From: Rhizoclosmatium globosum
Taxonomy: Eukaryota > Chytridiomycota > Chytridiomycetes > Chytridiales > Chytriomycetaceae
Assembly: GCA_002104985.1 (NCBI GenBank)
Contig: MCGO01000081.1
Location: 119,047 to 183,046, forward strand
Reading direction: 5' to 3'
DNA length: 64,000 nt
The notes under the pieces are model-generated. The model worked only from the letters and a program-made list of their open reading frames with translations. It was not told where the DNA came from and ran no database searches. Of this stretch, positions 54,975 to 64,000 are shown one piece after another; the stretch's first letter is position 1; each line of letters starts with the position of its first letter. The position numbers and the translations under genes are program-made.

Positions 54975-55124
54975 AGAAGAAAGAAATGATAACACGAAAT
55001 CACAATCACAAGAAATTGTGGTTGAGCCAAAGAAATATTAACATCAACGTGGAAGAGTCCAAAACTCGGCACCAAAAAAGTGATACGCCAAAAAAGAACC
55101 CACGAATCTTCAGCTTCAGCAAAT

Positions 55125-56825
55125 ATGACATTGCAAACGAGCAACAACAACGAATTGAAGGTGTCTGATACTGTCGCTCATTCAGGAGAGACGCAGACTC
55201 CCTTGTCCGATGCACAAGCCTCACTCAACAAGCTTCATTCGTTCATCTCTCTCAAGAATACATCCCGTCCTCTGCTCTGCCCCAATCCAATCGATCTCGG
55301 CAATGGACTTGTTCTGAGAAGAGCTGAACCTGGCGACAGGGATGAACTCGCAGCTTTCAATGCACACATCCACTTCCCTTCTGGTGGTCGAGGAACCTTT
55401 GACTATTTCAGTCCATCTAACTTTGAAGGTGCCGAGCATCCCACGACAGACCATACAAACTTCACTGTCGTTGTTGATACAGCCAAGAACAACAAGATTG
55501 TTAGTTCGGTATGGTCGGTTCCGCAGATTTGGTATTACGGAAACCCGGATACGCTTGCTACTGAGTCGAACGCTCTTGAGACGGGCGTGCCCATTGTTGT
55601 CGTTCGTCCTGAAGGTGTTGGGACGGATGAAGAGTATCGAGGACACGGTGAGTGTTTCACAGCTTTCGTGGCCAGGCATTGTGCTCATTGACATTATAGG
55701 ACTTATTAAGAAGCATATGGATGTGCATCATGAATGGGCGAGAGCTCTTGGGTCTCCACTGCAGTTTATTGGGGGAATGCCTCAGTACTATTGTCGGTTT
55801 GGATACGAGTGTGCACCAGAACGAATTGCGGGAGTTGGAGGGACACTTGCCTCGTTGGAGCCGTTAATCAAGAAGAAGGATCCACGCTTTCAAGTTCGAC
55901 AAGCTACTTTGGATGATGTTGACTTTATTATGACGACTGTACGTGTCAATTCTAGTCGTCGTGACGGGATATGGACTGACGTGGACCAATTTGGTTGGAC
56001 GAGTATTATGAAGGGACGTCAAGCGGGGTCGTTACAGCCTATCACCATTACGTTGTCGAATTCGTGTCGGATTCTCCAGAAAGTTCTAAGGAACCTGTTC
56101 GTATTGGGTTCGTCGAGTTTAAGTCTTACAGTGGAAATATTCAACGGCTGGAGCTTGCAGACACTGACGTGGCTTCGTGGGAAGATTTTACGAGTGCTGT
56201 TCTGGCATTTGTTCCTCAATTTCATAAGGAAGTGATGGCGGGAGTCAAGAAACAGATTCAAGCACCATACACTGCACCCCGAAAGATGAAAGTTACGATA
56301 ACTCAGCTGACCTGTGATTTCTGATGAGAATAGTAACACTCTTCCCAACGATTGGCAGTTCTTTTTATCGCTTGGTGCTCGTCATCCTGCATACAAAAGT
56401 GTGGCAGCTACGTGCCTTCCGCTGAAACGCGATCCTTATTATTGGTTCACAAGAATTGAATCTGTCCAGCATTTATTGAGTCTGTCGTTCCTGTTCTGAA
56501 TGATCGTTTGCGACGAAGCCTCACGTTCAGCAAGATACTTACACGTTTAGCATTACCAAGAGTGATTACAACGCTGGAGGCGCACCTTTAATAAGATTGA
56601 GAGAGGCAAGATTGTGAGCATTGAAACTTTGCCATTGGGCACAACAGTGGATCTGTGATTGAGAAAGGTGGTCAATTTGTAACGTTCCAAGGAAACACTG
56701 CAACACGAATGTGTTGGGACATCGTACAGCGAGTGAATTGCGACTGAATGGAGACGTTATGGACATCCAAAGTGTGTGGATGTGTTGGATGTACTGTTTC
56801 CAAGGATGGCCAATGATTAATTCTT
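55125..56825 (+). CDS. GNAT-family acetyltransferase-like protein; frame breaks
   Basis: Start ATG at 55125 (MTLQTSNNNELKVSDTVAHS). The GNAT fold starts at LGNGLVLRRAEPGDRDELAA and includes VVRPEGVGTDEEYRGHG, the acetyl-CoA-binding (R/Q)xxGxG-like loop. A short intron (about 55650-55699) separates EYRGH from GLIKKHMDVHHEWARALG. GMPQYYCRFGYECAPER is a typical late GNAT strand. One T is missing near 56000, after which DEYYEGTSSGVVTAYHHYVV continues in the right frame. Further single-base changes after 56330 link LPNDWQFFLSLGARHPAYK and a C-terminal part, LGHRTASELRLNGDVMDIQS, ending near 56825. The second half resembles other large fungal GNAT proteins of unknown substrate. Confidence 0.7.
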
Positions 56826-56967
56826 GGTTTTGATTGATGAATGAATTAAATAAAGGGTTGATAAAAAGAGCACTTAAGGAAGTGTGGCTGACTATGCGTT
56901 TCTTTGGAACATTTTGACATTGCACCATTTCCGACGACAGAACAAAACTCAACTTTAAGGGAACACC

Positions 56968-57210
56968 ATGGCCCGCACTTACCAATCGCCACTCTTCACA
57001 GCCGCCCTTCTTTTCTCAGCCTTCTTCAAGTAGCCTCTGCGCCGCTTCCAAAGCCAGTCGCCATGGCCAAAGTCAAAGTATCGCGACGAGACGTCGAACT
57101 CTGCGTCAATTCCTGTTTTCACCGTCGCCGCGTCGTCGATCGCCGTGTTGCTGTTCTTGTTGTCGTTGTTGGCGCCGTTGTTGTGCGCCGCCGAACCCGG
57201 ATTCAGAGTG
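56968..57210 (+). CDS. Possible small secreted or membrane protein, frame-broken
   Basis: ATG at 56968 gives MARTYQSPLFTAALLFSAFF, a good signal peptide, then a stop at 57030. One missing G at 57029 would continue into VASAPLPKPVAMAKVKVS. Beyond that, another frame encodes a second hydrophobic helix (ASSIAVLLFLLSLLAPLLCA), ending in RVR. A small protein with signal peptide and one TM helix is plausible, but two frame changes in about 240 bp make the exact product uncertain. Confidence 0.35.
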
Positions 57211-57785
57211 CGATAGTCCGCTCGACCTCAAACAATCCAAACTTTGAAGTACCGCGAATCGAACTCGGAAATGAAAAGAACGAAGTTTGTGTGTTTGGGA
57301 GACTGTCGAGAAGATCTATCATGATGTTGTCTCTCAGAAACCCATTAGACACAGTTGTTGTTTTGTTCTCTGCATCTTCTTGTTTCCCTCTTTCCTCCTC
57401 TTTCTTATTCTGCATTCACTGCCTCTTGTTTTACATCTGCATATGCATGCTTTCTTCATACTAGAATAGATTCTTATTTATCTTATGTTTCAACAAAACC
57501 ACGCCCAAAGAGGCTTTTACAATCAGAACACGGAAATCAAAAGCCTCCTTCGCAGACTCCAGAGTCTGATGAATACTTTGTGTCGAGAAATATCATCTTT
57601 TATTTTCTCTTTCTCTCTTCTTTATTTGATTTTTCGTCCCAATTAACATATCCTTCTTACTCAAGTCAGCTTGAATCGCAATAACCGCATATGAATGCTG
57701 TACATCATCGCTGATACGGTGTTTGGCCCAAACATAGCCCAAACCGAATCTACCCACGCAAACCACTGGGTTCTATACTGTTGGA
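57211..57785. other. Non-coding region left of the mobile element
   Basis: AT/pyrimidine-rich sequence with no supported gene. The minus-strand frame crossing 57661-57957 is mostly inverted-repeat sequence of the mobile element and is not a gene. Confidence 0.5.
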
Positions 57786-58015
57786 TTAAGTAGAGACAGT
57801 CAGAGATCAGGACATTACAGTTATAATGGATCAAGTAATGAGGTATAGTTTGATCAAGAGCAGTTGCATCCCCGCGCATTTTTGAGCAGAGATAGAGAGT
57901 GTCACAATCTTTGATCCAAGTGTACTGTAGAGATGTTTGGGGTTGCAAATGGATCATCAGGACTCTGTAATCGTGATCCAGTGTTTCTGTGCTCTCCCGA
58001 TTTCTCTCCTAGTGT
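57786..58015 (+). repeat. Left terminal inverted repeat
   Basis: 230 bp, inverted match to 62709-62938. Starts TTAAGTAGAGACAG at the outer end and ends CTCTCCTAGTGT inside. Confidence 0.9.
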
Positions 58016-58413
58016 AGCCTGTGTGTGTTTGTTTTGGCTCTTGAAATATGCAATCAATAGCTGCTCCACAGTTCTATCCACTCTTTCTATCCAAATCTAC
58101 TCTTCTTTCTTCTATATATCAGGATTTATTACGAAGGTTTTTGTGGTTGGAAAGGGTTTAGACAACATCTTGTTTCTGCTTGTTCACACTCTCTTCACCG
58201 CAAAAATAGATCTCCGCTTCAATGCCCAGAAGCAGAATGCAAGGATCTCCCCTTGTTTGGAAGCAAGTATTCATTGATAAAACATGCAAGGTTACACCAT
58301 CAACCTGTTGTTGGAGTTTATTACTGGAAAAATGACTACACAAGTATACAATTGTTTCTCTTTTTTAGTCGATAACTAAAACAAAGATTTTTATAGGAGA
58401 GGATGTACTTACT
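58016..58413 (+). other. 5' leader region of the element gene
   Basis: About 400 bp of T-rich sequence between the left inverted repeat and the first coding exon, with no supported ORF. Presumably promoter and 5' UTR of the recombinase-like gene. Confidence 0.4.
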
Positions 58414-61400
58414 ATGATTCAACGAAATCCAGAAAACAAAATGTTCAAGTGCAACAAGTGTAGCTATGCTGACCCCTTTCCTGAGAAGCTTCAGAAACAC
58501 GTGAAAATTACAAAGTGTGGTGTTGGCCATCCTGCTAGACATGGTTTCATGTGCTTGGATTGTCCCTATGTTTGTGTGACTGAACGATCCATGAAACTGC
58601 ACTGTCGGACTAAACATTCTGATAACCCATACTGGGCTTTCAAGCCAACTCTTGTGACAAAAGTTCACAGTAGCATCTATAAAATGTTTAAGCCTGAGGA
58701 AGGGTTCGATGCTCGTCAGAGAGCCAAGCAACTTCAAAGCCTTGCTCGGAAACAGAAAAAGGTGAAAAACACAGCGGGATCACGTTCAAAAGCATACCTC
58801 TCAACTGGATTGGAAACTGCTGGTTTGATTGCCTCATCAAGCAAAACAAACACACCATTTTTAAACAATGTGAGTTCAATATATTCATAGCAAGTGGTTG
58901 TTTACTTAATTTTATGGTAGATGGGATGGGACAAGTTGGTGTTTGGGGTTGATGCTATCAAGAATCCTGCAAACTACATTGCCTTATTGAAGGAGTCAAA
59001 AGATACCAAAGCTGTCTTTGTATGTTGTCGTCTGTTCTTGGAAAAAGTGAATGAGTTGGCATCATTGCCTGGAACGCAACCAACCCGCACTGCTATCAAA
59101 AATGCTGGTCGTAAGTCTACAAATGACTCTGGCTATGCAGGAAAGGTTTTCAAAGCTATTGACGTCAAAACCAGTATTCCAATCTACACTAGAACACTGG
59201 GCCTTTTTGTTGTGATGTTGATTGCTCGAATGGAAGGGAAACCCACTGGCACAAAGCTGCCGAAACTCCGTGAAGAAGTGAATGAGGCTGTCGATGAATT
59301 TGTTCAATCTCTTGATGTCCCCCTTCTTTGCAGAACAGATGCTGTCTTTCAAAACCAGCAACAGGCTTTGGTCAAATTATTGAGGATTGTACTGTTCGAG
59401 GACATTGGGTTTGATGGCCTTGACACTAGCCGAATCCATTTAGTGGAGGAGTTCTTGATGCTCAAGTTTTTGCAGTCTGATGGCACATTTTGCAAGGAAC
59501 AACTGATGACTGGGCCTTGTACTCATATTCTTTTTGCCTCTCGTTGTCTTGTCTTGGATTGGTGCCAAGAAATAGCTTCCTTTGGTTCTTGGATGCAAAA
59601 AGCTGAAAAAGAAAAGTAAGTTATGTTCTATTTATGTTGGTTATTAATGTTTGGAAAAGAGAGATCAATCAAGTCATTGAGCTTGTAAGCTATGGGAAAC
59701 ACAGTCTTCCATATGCAAAAATGAAACAGTTCAAGTCAGTCTGTGGATTGATTGTGATGGGCAGTAACACAGCCAATTTAATCAGCAAGCATTGGGACTA
59801 TTCTCTGCCAAATGAACCAAAATTGGTCATTGACAATCGGGTTGGGATTTCAAAGACAATGTTCCGTGAAGGGTGTGCAAATTACTTTCAAGTTATATCT
59901 GAGGACTTGGACTCTTTGTTGTATGGAATGGATGTTACCAACTTCAAGTTTGATCCAACACATTTGACTGATAATGTTGCAAATACAACACCAGGCTACA
60001 GCTTCATGACAGATGCAGCCAACAGCACTATTTTCACTGAAGCCAATGGAAATAGACTGGAAGAGCATCTCAGGAAAAAGATAGAATTGAGAGCTATGTT
60101 TTTTGTACCTGGCAGGTGTATTTATAAGGCTGATGCTATGGAACAATACACAGGTATTACACAACTACTGGTTAGTATTATACATCTAACAAAACAGCAG
60201 TTCAAGTTGACAAGTTTATTTCTCTTTTGATGCTGGGTCTTACCTTGTTTTGTGGAATGCCTCCTCGTACGACTGAGTTTCAAATGACGTCAATTGTTAA
60301 TTCTGGTTTGGGAAAAAGGAATTTGATGATCTTGGAGCATAGACTCTGCATTAATTTGAGGTTTGTATTGATAGAATGATTAGGAAAGACTCATCTTACG
60401 TTACTTCAAAGGTACAACAAGTCGAGTGCAAACTCTGGATACCACAAGGACGTTTTTCGATTTGTTCCAGACAAGCTTGCACAAATTCTTATGAAGTATT
60501 TGGTGTTTGTGTATCCACTCTACACGTAAGGCTTCTTTGCAAAGTATCAATCATAAGATTACTAATGGCTTTCTCAGTGCATTTGGGCAGATATGAGAAT
60601 CCGCAAAAAGATGTCGTTCCTTACCCATGAAGAGGAAATTCATGCCAAGACTTACCTGTTCTTGAGAAATGGTGTTGAAACAAACGTAAAAGTATTGCAT
60701 CGATTGTACATGCAAAGTTTCTGGAACATTTTCGGGGTCAATCTGGGAATCCGCCACACTCGACAAATGATGGCATCTTTTGCTGATGACATTGACTTTG
60801 AAGAAGCTGCTGCAGCCACTGTGAATGAGACTGTTAGCAGACAGTTTGGGCACAGCTCCAGGGTCCACCAACTCAACTACGGGGCCACTACTGACGGAGC
60901 TGCAGTTATTCGTAAAATGAAGAGCATCTCTGATAAATGGTGGCATTGGTGCTGTTTGGTAGGAGAAGTTGATTCTCAAGGTACTTTACCTGTCTCAAGA
61001 TCGAGATCAGCAGGCACTGGGTCAGGAGTATTTGATTCAGTAGTAATTGACGTTGAACACAGTGATGATGCTGCAGACAGTGACAGTAGTGATGGTGGGG
61101 CTGAAAGTGCTCTTGGTGATGGCAACGTTGATCAAGAAATTGACTCTGTTCTGAGTGAGAGTACATTTGGTCATGAAAACATTGAGGAGCATGAATTCTG
61201 TGATGAAGACAACAGTGAAAGTAATAGGGACTGTTTGGACAAAGCCAGCACCAGTGAGCAGGAATCAGTAGATGGTCAGGAAAGTGAAACTGATTCCAGG
61301 AATGACGGACGGCTTGATCCTAGATATCCTAAAGACAGTGAGCAGGAATCAGTAGATGGTCAGGAAAGTGAAACTGATTCCAGGAATGACGGACGGCTTG

Positions 61401-61579
61401 ATCCTAGATATCCTAAAGAATTTAATGATCCTAATTTAGCAACCTTTTACTCCATGATTTTCAAGTATCTGGATGATAATGCTGAAGCCCTTGGATACAA
61501 TAACACACCCAGTGAAGATGAGGCTTGGGCTACAGATTATGATGATGATGATGATGACGATGATGAAACTGAAGGCTAA
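58414..61579 (+). CDS. C2H2-type zinc-finger plus tyrosine-recombinase-like protein with acidic tail
   Basis: Exons: 58414-58869, 58921-59615, 59660-60153, 60198-60360, 60412-60525 and about 60578-61579; all but the last junction are in phase. The N-terminus has two Cys/His fingers (CNKCSYADPF...HVKITKC and CLDCPYVCVTERSMKLHCRT). The C-terminal third shows tyrosine-recombinase landmarks: box I-like LTLFCGMPPRTTEF (Arg codon 60266-60268), a HKDVFRFVPDKLAQILMKYL strand-helix, and box II-like LGIRHTRQMM (Arg-His, 60752-60757). The final QFGHSSRVHQLNYGA carries His (60851-60853) and candidate nucleophile Tyr (60878-60880). The tail is acidic and ends in a poly-Asp run (DYDDDDDDDDETEG). One base appears missing at the last splice junction. 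Its arrangement recalls the N-terminal half of fungal telomere-linked RecQ-like proteins, but no helicase follows. Confidence 0.7.
61253..61420 (+). repeat. 84-bp tandem duplication inside the acidic tail
   Basis: Two near-exact copies of an 84-bp (28-codon) unit, 61253-61336 and 61337-61420, encoding SEQESVDGQESETDSRNDGR and the following residues. The reading frame is kept. Confidence 0.9.
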
Positions 61580-62708
61580 GGAGTTGTTTACAAAGAAGTA
61601 TCACTGGCTCAAAACAAAAACGCACCATTCATTTAACCTCAATAAAACATTTCAGTTCTTTATTAACCAAGATGCCTATCACTACTGTAGTTGTGCTCAC
61701 TGCTTTACTTGCATTGGTCTACTTGCTCAACTCACAGCCACTTTGATCACTGAATTGCTGCTGTGTTTACAATTATTTCAGAATATTAGCCCAATCCACA
61801 CCTTCCATGGCATCAGCCCTTGTTGATCTTGGTTCAGGACCCACGTCACAGACTCCTATTGGAGCTCTTGCCTACCTGACTTGTCACATCTTTGTCTTCC
61901 ATCTCAATGCCTCCAGTGCACCTTGCCACAGTATCTCCTCAGCACCACAACTTGACCTGCCTTCAAAGATAAAGAAGCAACCGCAACTGCGAGACTGGTA
62001 ACTGCCCATGGACAAACCAACAAGAAAGCTCTAACTCTCAACCTTTTTCGACCATTTCTACCAAATTGGTTGAGGCTCGCAGTCACTGCTTTACCCTCAC
62101 ACCTCTAATATGCACTTATAACTAACATGTCTTAGTAAACTTGACTTTATAGATTGTTTGAGTCATGGGTGCATGAGCTGAGAGGATTCTGGACTTGAGC
62201 CTGAAGTTGGCTGACTTGAGCCTCAAGTTACGTTTTCCCCGCACACCACTAATATCCACTCAGAACTAAAGTAAACTCTGACTTGACTTTATAGATGTGT
62301 TTGAAGTGTGGGAGCATGTACTGATAGGATTCTGGACTAAAGCCTCAAGTTACGTTTTACCCGCACACGGCGAATATCCACTCAAAGCTAACATAACTTA
62401 TTAAAGTTGATTGTATAGACGTTATTGAGTGGTGGATGCATGTGTCGGATGTTTGTGACCTTGGTGAGAATTGAAGTTAGACAGCTTAAACCTCAAATCC
62501 ACTTCTTTTAACTGACTACGTTTTAATATGAAAAGTTTTTGATTTCATTGCTTTTTTGGGTTAAGATCTTTGTGTATAAGTTATTTCTGCCACATATTGA
62601 GCAAACAGTTGCAAATCAAGAATTCACGAACAATCTGATTGTACATCTTTTATTTTTTAACCACATTTAATAAAGTAAACAAGCATAGTTGGCAATTTAA
62701 CGTCTTGC
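61580..62708 (+). other. 3' non-coding part of the element with degenerate tandem repeat
   Basis: No supported gene. From about 62095 to 62460 three diverged copies of a roughly 130-bp unit occur, each with a GACTTTATAGA-like phrase (62144, 62284, 62410) followed by TTGAG/TTGAA, a GTGGGAGCATG-like phrase and CTCAAGTTACGTTTT. These may serve as internal binding sites next to the right inverted repeat. Confidence 0.6.
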
Positions 62709-62938
62709 ACACTAGGAGAGAAATCGGGAGAGCACAGAAACACTGGATCACGATTACAGAGTCCTGATGATCCATTTGCAACCCCAAACATCTCTACAGT
62801 ACACTTGGATCAAAGATTGTGACACTCTCTATCTCTGCTCAAAAATGCGCGGGGATGCAACTGCTCTTGATCAAACTATACCTCATTACTTGATCCATTA
62901 TAACTGTAATGTCCTGATCTCTGACTGTCTCTACTTAA
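62709..62938 (-). repeat. Right terminal inverted repeat
   Basis: 230 bp, inverted match to 57786-58015, ending in TTAA at 62935-62938. Confidence 0.9.
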
Positions 62939-63147
62939 AACACCCTTGCTGATAGAAAGCAAGAAGGAGGAGACTGTGAAGGAGAGGGATTTACGAAAAT
63001 GAATTTTTGACAAATCTTGCTTTAAACTGTTGTGACTGTTGAAAGGTTTCTCAATGGTTCCAAGAGGGACTGAAATGTCAGCTTCTTTTGTTTTTGATAA
63101 AGATTGACACACTCACCTTCCTTCTCAGTATCACCTGAAATATTCGT
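62939..63147. other. Short unique spacer before satellite
   Basis: About 210 bp between the element and the subtelomeric satellite. No coding sequence or repeat seen. Confidence 0.5.
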
Positions 63148-63866
63148 AAATAGGATTATACTATTCCTTAATTCAAGGCTACTCTATAGGTACTGCCCCA
63201 GATTAAGGAATAGGATTATACTATTGTAAATAGGATTATACTATTCCTTAAACCAAGGCTACTCTATAGGTACTGCCCCAGATTAAGGAATAGGATTATA
63301 CTATTTCAAAATAGGATTATACTATTCCTTAAACCAAGGCTACTCTATAGGTACTGCCCCAGATTAAGGAATAGGATTATACTATTCGTAAATAGGATTA
63401 TACTATTCCTTAAACCAAGGCTACTCTATAGGTACTGCCCCAGATTAAGGAATAGGATTATACTATTCGTAAATAGGATTATACTATTCCTTAAACCAAG
63501 GCTACTCTATAGGTACTGCCCCAGATTAAGGAATAGGATTATACTATTTCAAAATAGGATTATACTATTCCTTAAACCAAGGCTACTCTATAGGTACTGC
63601 CCCAGATTAAGGAATAGGATTATACTATTCGAAATAGGATTATACTATTCCTTAATTCAAGGCTACTCTATAGGTACTGCCCCAGATTAAGGAATAGGAT
63701 TATACTATTTGAAATAGGATTATACTATTCCTTAATCCAAGGCTACTCTATAGGTACTGCCCCAGATTAAGGAATAGGATTATACTATTTCAAATAGGAT
63801 TATACTATTCCTTAACAAGGCTACTCTATAGGTACTGCCCCAGATTAAGGAATAGGATTATACTAT
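63148..63866 (+). repeat. Subtelomeric satellite, nine units of about 81 bp
   Basis: Nine copies of a unit containing the core GGCTACTCTATAGGTACTGC, flanked on both sides by the phrase AATAGGATTATACTATT. Between cores, the junction reads TTAAGGAATAG GATTATA CTATT ... AATAG GATTATA CTATTCCTTAA, so consecutive units are linked by an interrupted palindrome. Core spacing averages 81.5 bp (first core at about 63177, last at about 63829). Units differ only at a few bases and in 0-3 bp at the junction. Confidence 0.95.
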
Positions 63867-64000
63867 TTAGGTTAGGGTTAGGGTTAGGGTTAGGGTTAGG
63901 GTTAGGGTTAGGTTAGGGTTAGGGTTAGGGTTAGGGTTAGGGTTAGGGTTAGGGTTAGGTTAGGGTTAGGGTTAGGGTTAGGGTTAGGGTTAGGTTAGGG
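63867..64000 (+). repeat. Telomeric repeat array (TTAGGG)n
   Basis: About 23 units of TTAGGG running to the window end, G-rich strand pointing outward. Four units read TTAGG (63867, about 63906, 63954 and 63989). The array begins directly after the last satellite unit. This identifies the right edge as a chromosome end. Confidence 0.97.

Follow-up and report, generated by a model that had tools for sequence, protein, structure and literature searches.

A tagged cassette with long terminal inverted repeats and a putative recombinase-like gene near contig ends of Rhizoclosmatium globosum

Genes for telomere-linked helicases (TLHs) are multicopy and lie near chromosome ends, as described in part of PMC12857005. 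A further part of the same source describes FoTeRs, which are non-long terminal repeat (non-LTR) retrotransposons with a reverse transcriptase (RT) that are joined to telomeres, have truncated copies and co-occur with TLHs (PMC12857005). Terminons and Athena elements of bdelloid rotifers have one end fixed on G-rich telomere repeats and the other truncated by telomere repeats, form head-to-tail arrays and carry mixed cargo (PMC6431247). Cryptons have neither terminal inverted repeats (TIRs) nor long direct repeats in the description given in part of PMC3212892. Here we describe an element at positions 57786 to 62938 of a 64,000-nucleotide stretch of DNA (the window) from the chytrid Rhizoclosmatium globosum (Chytridiales). 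The window corresponds to C401:119047-183046 of a 56.9 Mb assembly with 420 contigs. No publication on this element was found in the openly licensed literature.

The window element is probably a chromosome-end cassette, made up of a leader tag, a TIR with exon 1, a helicase-free TLH-type gene, a second TIR, a tail, a palindromic array and the telomere. Taken jointly with the mechanism proposed below, we consider this explanation somewhat probable.

A common tag and a fixed proximal end near contig ends

The telomere-side join of the element was the tag GTTCTATACTGTTGGA, located immediately before the left TIR. The 19-mer GTTCTATACTGTTGGATTA and its 3' 16-mer CTATACTGTTGGATTA had 70 and 73 exact copies in the genome, respectively, and none in the reversed control. 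The tag read to the nearer contig end in 71 of 72 copies, at a median distance of 6.1 kb and at 51 ends, the 73rd copy being on a contig of unrecorded size. GTT was found directly before the 16-mer in 70 of the 73 copies. This is the unbiased share, since most of the 67 distinct junctions that were read had been fetched with the 19-mer, which biases the share of GTT among them. At these junctions, positions -4 and -5 before the tag were G in 60/67 and 58/67, respectively. A TTAGG-like unit was present in the last 14 bp before the tag at 41 junctions and absent at 26. The DNA upstream of the tag consisted of telomere-like repeats or of other sequence, often truncated and including truncated gene copies (L020, L034).

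The sequence after the tag was cassette type F2 at 34 of the 67 junctions (two being short odd stubs), family B at 10, family A (that of the window element) at 9, and F3 and F5 at 7 each; F2 to F9 are labels coined here for cassette types. Unrelated cassettes have the tag in common and stack head-to-tail. Unrelated sequences carry one end that is locked to a single telomere phase and is also joined to other DNA. The proximal end was fixed and kept one register behind GTT, in most cases GGGTT, while the distal end was variable and often followed by telomere-like repeats. A fixed end on telomeric G-strand repeats with a truncated other end is the arrangement of Terminons and Athena. Growth at chromosome ends is suggested because the fixed proximal and variable distal polarity, the register after GGGTT and the stacking match Terminons. 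The gene of the element and its relatives occurred at 36 places on 32 contigs (hand-picked from 98 exon matches). Contig size allowed placement of 25 of these, the other 11 being left out, and all 25 pointed outward.

Several F2 loci had features of their own. At locus L033 (C62:72068), a stub of 25 bp from a tagged F2 cassette adjoined the poly(A) end of a long interspersed nuclear element (LINE); its tag is one of the three without a preceding GTT. In the F2 cassette of L051, the first 34 residues of a minus-strand frame (2162-2803) resembled the histone H3 tail (best E 1.1e-5, PDB sequences), while the remainder had no match; the frame is a possible chromatin mimic. Plus-strand frames of 214 and 738 aa at L051 4155-6999 had no Pfam match and faced inward to the tag. 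The F2 cassette was considered as an RT carrier, with a LINE of C31 in the same subtelomere, but was rejected because the homology with C35 covers only parts of F2. Read-through of telomerase RNA was also considered as a possible source of the tag.

Architecture, copies and gene of the element

The arms at 57786-58015 and 62709-62938 were 230 nt each and 100% complementary. They were the longest inverted pair in 55000-64000, the next being 52 nt, and TTAA was the outer end of both. The initial annotation of the window had described perfect 230-bp TIRs with TTAA ends around one multi-exon gene, which was confirmed, with eight exons. The features are as follows:

57770..57788, plus strand: cassette tag GTTCTATACTGTTGGATTA, consisting of the leader (57770-57785) and the first three bases of the TIR; common to unrelated cassettes near many contig ends
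57786..58015, plus strand: left (proximal) 230-bp TIR, containing the start codon, exon 1 and the first splice donor
57826..57842, plus strand: exon 1 (MDQVM plus 2 nt), within the TIR; 17 nt in families A, B and C
58210..58343, plus strand: exon 2 (gene model; family comparison)
58397..58869, plus strand: exon 3, with a C2H2-type finger at the Pfam cut-off (Pfam; gene model; family comparison)
58921..59615, plus strand: exon 4 (gene model; family comparison)
59660..60153, plus strand: exon 5 (gene model; family comparison)
60198..60360, plus strand: exon 6, with Arg-box-like GMPPRTTEF, aligned to Podochytrium AGPPSRRTD
60412..60525, plus strand: exon 7 (gene model; family comparison)
60578..61579, plus strand: exon 8, with LGIRHTRQ, GHSSRVHQLNYG and an acidic tail; the window copy is one base short near the exon start
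61252..61419, plus strand: 84-bp perfect tandem duplication within the acidic tail (repeat analysis)
62070..62443, no strand assigned: diverged internal direct repeats 3' of the gene (repeat analysis)
62709..62938, minus strand: right (distal) TIR, identical to the left TIR, so that it has the same start region, facing inward
62939..63024, plus strand: 86-bp tail, common to all five copies retaining the right TIR
63147..63868, plus strand: 81-bp unit in nine copies, its arms being palindromic AATAGGATTATACTATT; core in 5 contigs, always distal to a family A or C gene
63870..64000, plus strand: terminal TTAGGG telomere repeats, end of contig C401

The TTAGGG repeats started 931 bp past the right TIR, and the window copy thus lies next to a telomere (about 1 kb from the TTAGGG end), as TLH genes do, with contig ends standing in for chromosome ends. 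The core of the 81-bp unit had 45 exact matches on the 5 contigs, on all of which it was distal to the family A or C gene. The family A copies on C206 and C223 had a different repeat where the window has the 81-bp array.

A genome-wide search with the TIR gave at least 17 matches, representing 12 elements with 12 proximal ends, five distal ends and no distal end alone. Of the seven elements without a right TIR, two ran off the contig (C92, C269) and five stopped at 65, 117, 165, 2137 and 3172 bp. The five shortened elements continued into telomere-like repeats (C31, C248, C290) or directly into another cassette (C1, C268). The proximal context of the 12 family A elements was ...TACTGTTGGA in nine, ...TACTGT in two and a different leader in one. 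The flanks outside TTAA were thus constrained, with the leader tag whole or shortened at 11 of 12 proximal ends. All five copies with a right TIR continued past it with one common tail of 86 bp or more. A search with the 86-bp tail returned four matches, all adjoining family A elements and none elsewhere, and missed the fifth known copy (C206).

The copies on C246 and C206 were both 8221 bp long and had an insert at the same element position, with different left contexts. Because they share the insert position yet differ in proximal context, the cassette was moved or exchanged after the insertion. The 3.1-kb insert of C246 (L009 4909-8057), in the 3' region of the element, was Harbinger-like with a DDE_Tnp_4 domain; this domain was tested in C246, and the C206 insert is known by its same place and length.

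The left tips were TTAAGTAGAG in family A, TTAAAAAGAG in family B and TCAACAAGAG in family C, the last with TCAA instead of TTAA (left end only). TTAA appears to belong to the TIR tip rather than to a target duplication, because the tips of families A and B have TTAA while the left tip of family C has TCAA.

Compared with seven of eight other copies, that of the window was one base short where exon 8 begins; the eighth stopped before exon 8, and the C246 copy encoded an uninterrupted protein of 1002 aa. Introns were retained in nine family A copies as far as each extends, and also in families B and C. Exon lengths matched among the three families except for exon 6 (160-163 nt) and the last exon; exon boundaries of families B and C were set by hand, and the last exon of family B was cut by the contig end. 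The ratio of nonsynonymous to synonymous substitution rates (dN/dS) was 0.155, 0.140 and 0.153 for A-B, A-C and B-C, respectively. By region, it was 0.10-0.12 in the recombinase-like part and 0.41-0.57 in the acidic tail. With exon lengths in agreement across families and dN/dS between families at 0.14-0.16, a chance reading can be dismissed for this gene.

Family B had about 74% nucleotide identity and inverted repeats of about 170 bp with exon 1 inside, the two arms compared coming from different copies. Family C also had inverted repeats with exon 1 inside, of which about 95 bp were visible, the right arm in C400 being cut back. On C400 (L086), family C units were arranged in tandem with a period of 3778 bp and met at a partly deleted TIR junction. 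In family B cassettes (L053, about 316-872), a second small reading frame of about 185 aa, read by eye, followed the recombinase-like gene. The database protein P0004 joined a LINE RT fragment to the family C N-terminus, probably because the gene model was fused over a subtelomeric junction.

The encoded protein and its helicase-fused relative

The motifs GMPPRTTEF, LGIRHTRQ and GHSS...NYG, from which the initial annotation had proposed a tyrosine recombinase (YR), were all present in the translated gene. These residues and their order fit R...R..H..Y and are partly kept in a relative from Podochytrium (P0007, described below). Both the family and P0007 fitted a loose, post hoc R-R-H-Y spacing pattern, which at most 0.1% of shuffles matched. 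In the annotated family C protein P0002 the second R was replaced by G, and the C400 copies retained R. YR identity was not supported by Pfam, NCBIfam or PDB sequences, among which no YR family was matched. PF00589 (E 0.1) had no match in the R. globosum genome, and all 14 control genomes were positive. PHROGs gave one match with unassigned function (E 0.023), and a search of PDB sequences with P0002 returned zinc-finger chains and one centrosomal chain, all weak. The mean AlphaFold predicted local distance difference test scores were 28.5 and 33.3 for two models; the helicase half of the second, a positive control, was likewise below 50. The protein is called YR-like here for its residue signature and order, and may or may not be an active tyrosine recombinase. 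Support for the N-terminal Cys/His fingers noted earlier was weak: zf-H2C2_5 scored 27.0 bits on the exon-3 frame, at the cut-off of 27, but 21.4 on the annotated P0001, below it.

Two single-sequence database searches gave matches in R. globosum only. A profile built from four sequences retrieved six R. globosum proteins and one other, P0007 of Podochytrium sp. JEL0797 (E 4.7e-35), a member of the same family as R. globosum, Chytriomycetaceae; the profile and one earlier single-sequence search scored only about 8000 candidates sharing most words. Alignment of the gene family with P0007 by hhalign had a probability of 99.9 over 530 columns with 29% identity, and BLASTP identity was 26%. The motifs aligned as GMPPRTTEF/AGPPSRRTD, GIRHTRQM/GVRAYRDM and QFGHSS..NYG/QFGHSE..NYG (family/P0007). 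The C-terminus of P0007 was a DEAD helicase (Pfam 6.4e-13), nearest by sequence to RECQ5, followed by WRN and BLM. P0007 is on a 3.5-kb contig, too short to place it relative to telomeres.

No helicase domain was matched in P0001-P0004, so the RecQ-type helicase of TLHs is missing from these proteins. None of 51 own-genome matches reached the helicase half of P0007, all ending by residue 598. RecQ helicases had 38 matches in the R. globosum genome and were within 10 kb of the contig start on C197, C330 and C360. As judged from sequence, the gene encodes a relative of TLH-type proteins that lacks the helicase, because the Podochytrium protein joins the same region (26-29% identity) to a RecQ-type helicase. 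A helicase-free relative of TLH elements had been one suggestion of the initial annotation, which this fusion and the outward orientation of all 25 placed genes support. TLHs in other fungi carry such a recombinase-like region. To our knowledge, the origin and role of fungal TLHs are open.

Proposed attachment to telomeres, alternatives and comparison with known systems

Polarity, the fixed register after GGGTT and stacking point to telomere-primed attachment, which shares the joint judgement given at the outset. A cassette would be copied onto a telomere or broken end, with synthesis primed by the G-strand end and GGGTT pairing with the AACCC beside the tag. The template is probably RNA, because SINE-like cassettes (resembling short interspersed nuclear elements) with boxes like those of RNA polymerase III (Pol III) promoters share the same kind of end. 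After attachment, erosion, telomerase healing and the next cassette would follow. In the YR-like cassette, the antisense strand of the gene would serve as template, and the promoter for this strand could lie in the second copy of the start region, within the right TIR; an RNA template would be expected to end ...TCCAACAGTATAGAACCC, antisense to the gene. Copying from spliced sense mRNA is excluded because the introns are retained. A role of the recombinase-like protein at the TIRs or terminal arrays, in their resolution or amplification, is more likely than one in end-joining.

A pattern for Pol III-like A and B boxes, picked after viewing the sequence, had five matches in 52 kb of chosen loci and none in 20 shuffles. 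Four of the five, including two homologous ones, were oriented towards the tag. The boxes were in F3 and F6, the latter having a variant tag, and suggest RNA-templated, telomere-primed synthesis. The B box of F2 failed the pattern. The sites (L018 2637-2694, L010 896-950, L017 and L019) mark candidate telomere-attaching SINEs in cassettes F3/F6.

Several observations weigh against attachment of this kind. ARAGORN and Rfam found no tRNA-like RNA, leaving consensus A and B boxes only. No RT with the tag at its 3' end was found, the 3' ends having been read for two LINEs among those behind 105 RT matches; one was poly(A) and the other was joined to TTAGGG. The YR gene would be antisense to its template RNA. 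The left flanks of the window and C122 copies were 95.7% alike over 1 kb, making them sister copies and not independent events; copies are thus also spread by duplication. A single copy of the tag was interstitial (C412:21393). Contig ends are a proxy for chromosome ends, and among 18 ends read, a long TTAGGG run was found only at that of the window and degenerate repeats at that of C390. Separately, two LINE groups were present at contig ends, one with an endonuclease and an RT and a 3' end joined to TTAGGG, and one with poly(A) joined to CCCTAA (L085 648-4502, minus strand; L028, L084).

An autonomous tyrosine-recombinase transposon with TIRs, whose own enzyme integrates it beside the telomeric leader tag via a circular intermediate, is possible but rather doubtful. 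Left TIR tips adjoined different leaders, three for family A and two for each of families B and C, which makes the tip a true joint. The tips fit TYAANNAGAG, the tandem 3778-bp family C units of C400 meet at a cut-back TIR junction, and the YR-like signature is kept in the Podochytrium relative. However, neither profile searches nor structure models supported a YR, the same tag heads other sequences (F2, F3 and F5 at 34, 7 and 7 of the 67 junctions, respectively), and the right TIR end of family A was found in one context only, with the same tail in 5/5.

Passive spread is improbable; here, old subtelomeric blocks, and with them a host TLH-like gene, would be copied among chromosome ends through break-induced replication and segmental exchange. 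Subtelomeric exchange is common in fungi, the left flank common to the window and C122 agrees with it, and purifying selection fits a host-like gene. Against it stands the exact common proximal end beside unrelated flanks and in a fixed telomere register at dozens of places, and most left flanks differ. We give an equally low probability to the recombinase-like protein itself joining tagged cassettes to telomeric GGGTT 3' ends, an RT-independent, DNA-based end extension; the TLHs of other fungi would then descend, in helicase-fused form, from an end-joining recombinase of this kind.

A TTAA-targeting DDE transposon (piggyBac or Kolobok-like) would explain the long TIRs with TTAA at both ends but is highly improbable, given the TCAA of the family C left tip, the absence of an empty site among the 67 tag junctions read, and no DDE match in the gene, the sole DDE domain found being in the separate nested insert. 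The earlier suggestion of a TTAA-bounded transposon is therefore not supported, and a TTAA target duplication is disfavoured: TTAA is present in families A and B, but the join is marked by the tag and telomere-like repeats.

The cassette can be compared with four described systems. Like fungal TLH genes, the R. globosum gene is multicopy near contig ends, and in a chytrid relative its region is joined to a RecQ-type helicase; unlike them, it has no helicase half and lies inside a TIR-bearing tagged cassette. Like Terminons and Athena Penelope-like elements, the cassettes have a fixed end, a truncated other end, head-to-tail stacking and mixed cargo. Unlike them, the window element has no RT match (other cassettes being partly read), its gene points outward, and Rfam found no hammerhead in the loci tested. 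Telomere-joined ends, truncated copies and TLH co-occurrence are shared with MoTeRs and FoTeRs, the telomeric LINEs of ascomycetes, whereas the window element encodes a recombinase-like protein and not a non-LTR RT. With Crypton and DIRS the window gene shares the R...R..H..Y-like residue order, while the 230-bp TIRs set the element apart from Cryptons.

The R. globosum cassette is probably a new variation on known telomere-attached elements, with unusual parts. It offers a testable route from a mobile element to fungal TLHs, and the cassettes are a natural system to study the capping of broken ends. The telomere-attached elements known to us are all retroelements or dependent on them; here a single telomere-phased end is common to several cassettes that are unrelated to each other, among them one that has long TIRs and a recombinase-like gene.

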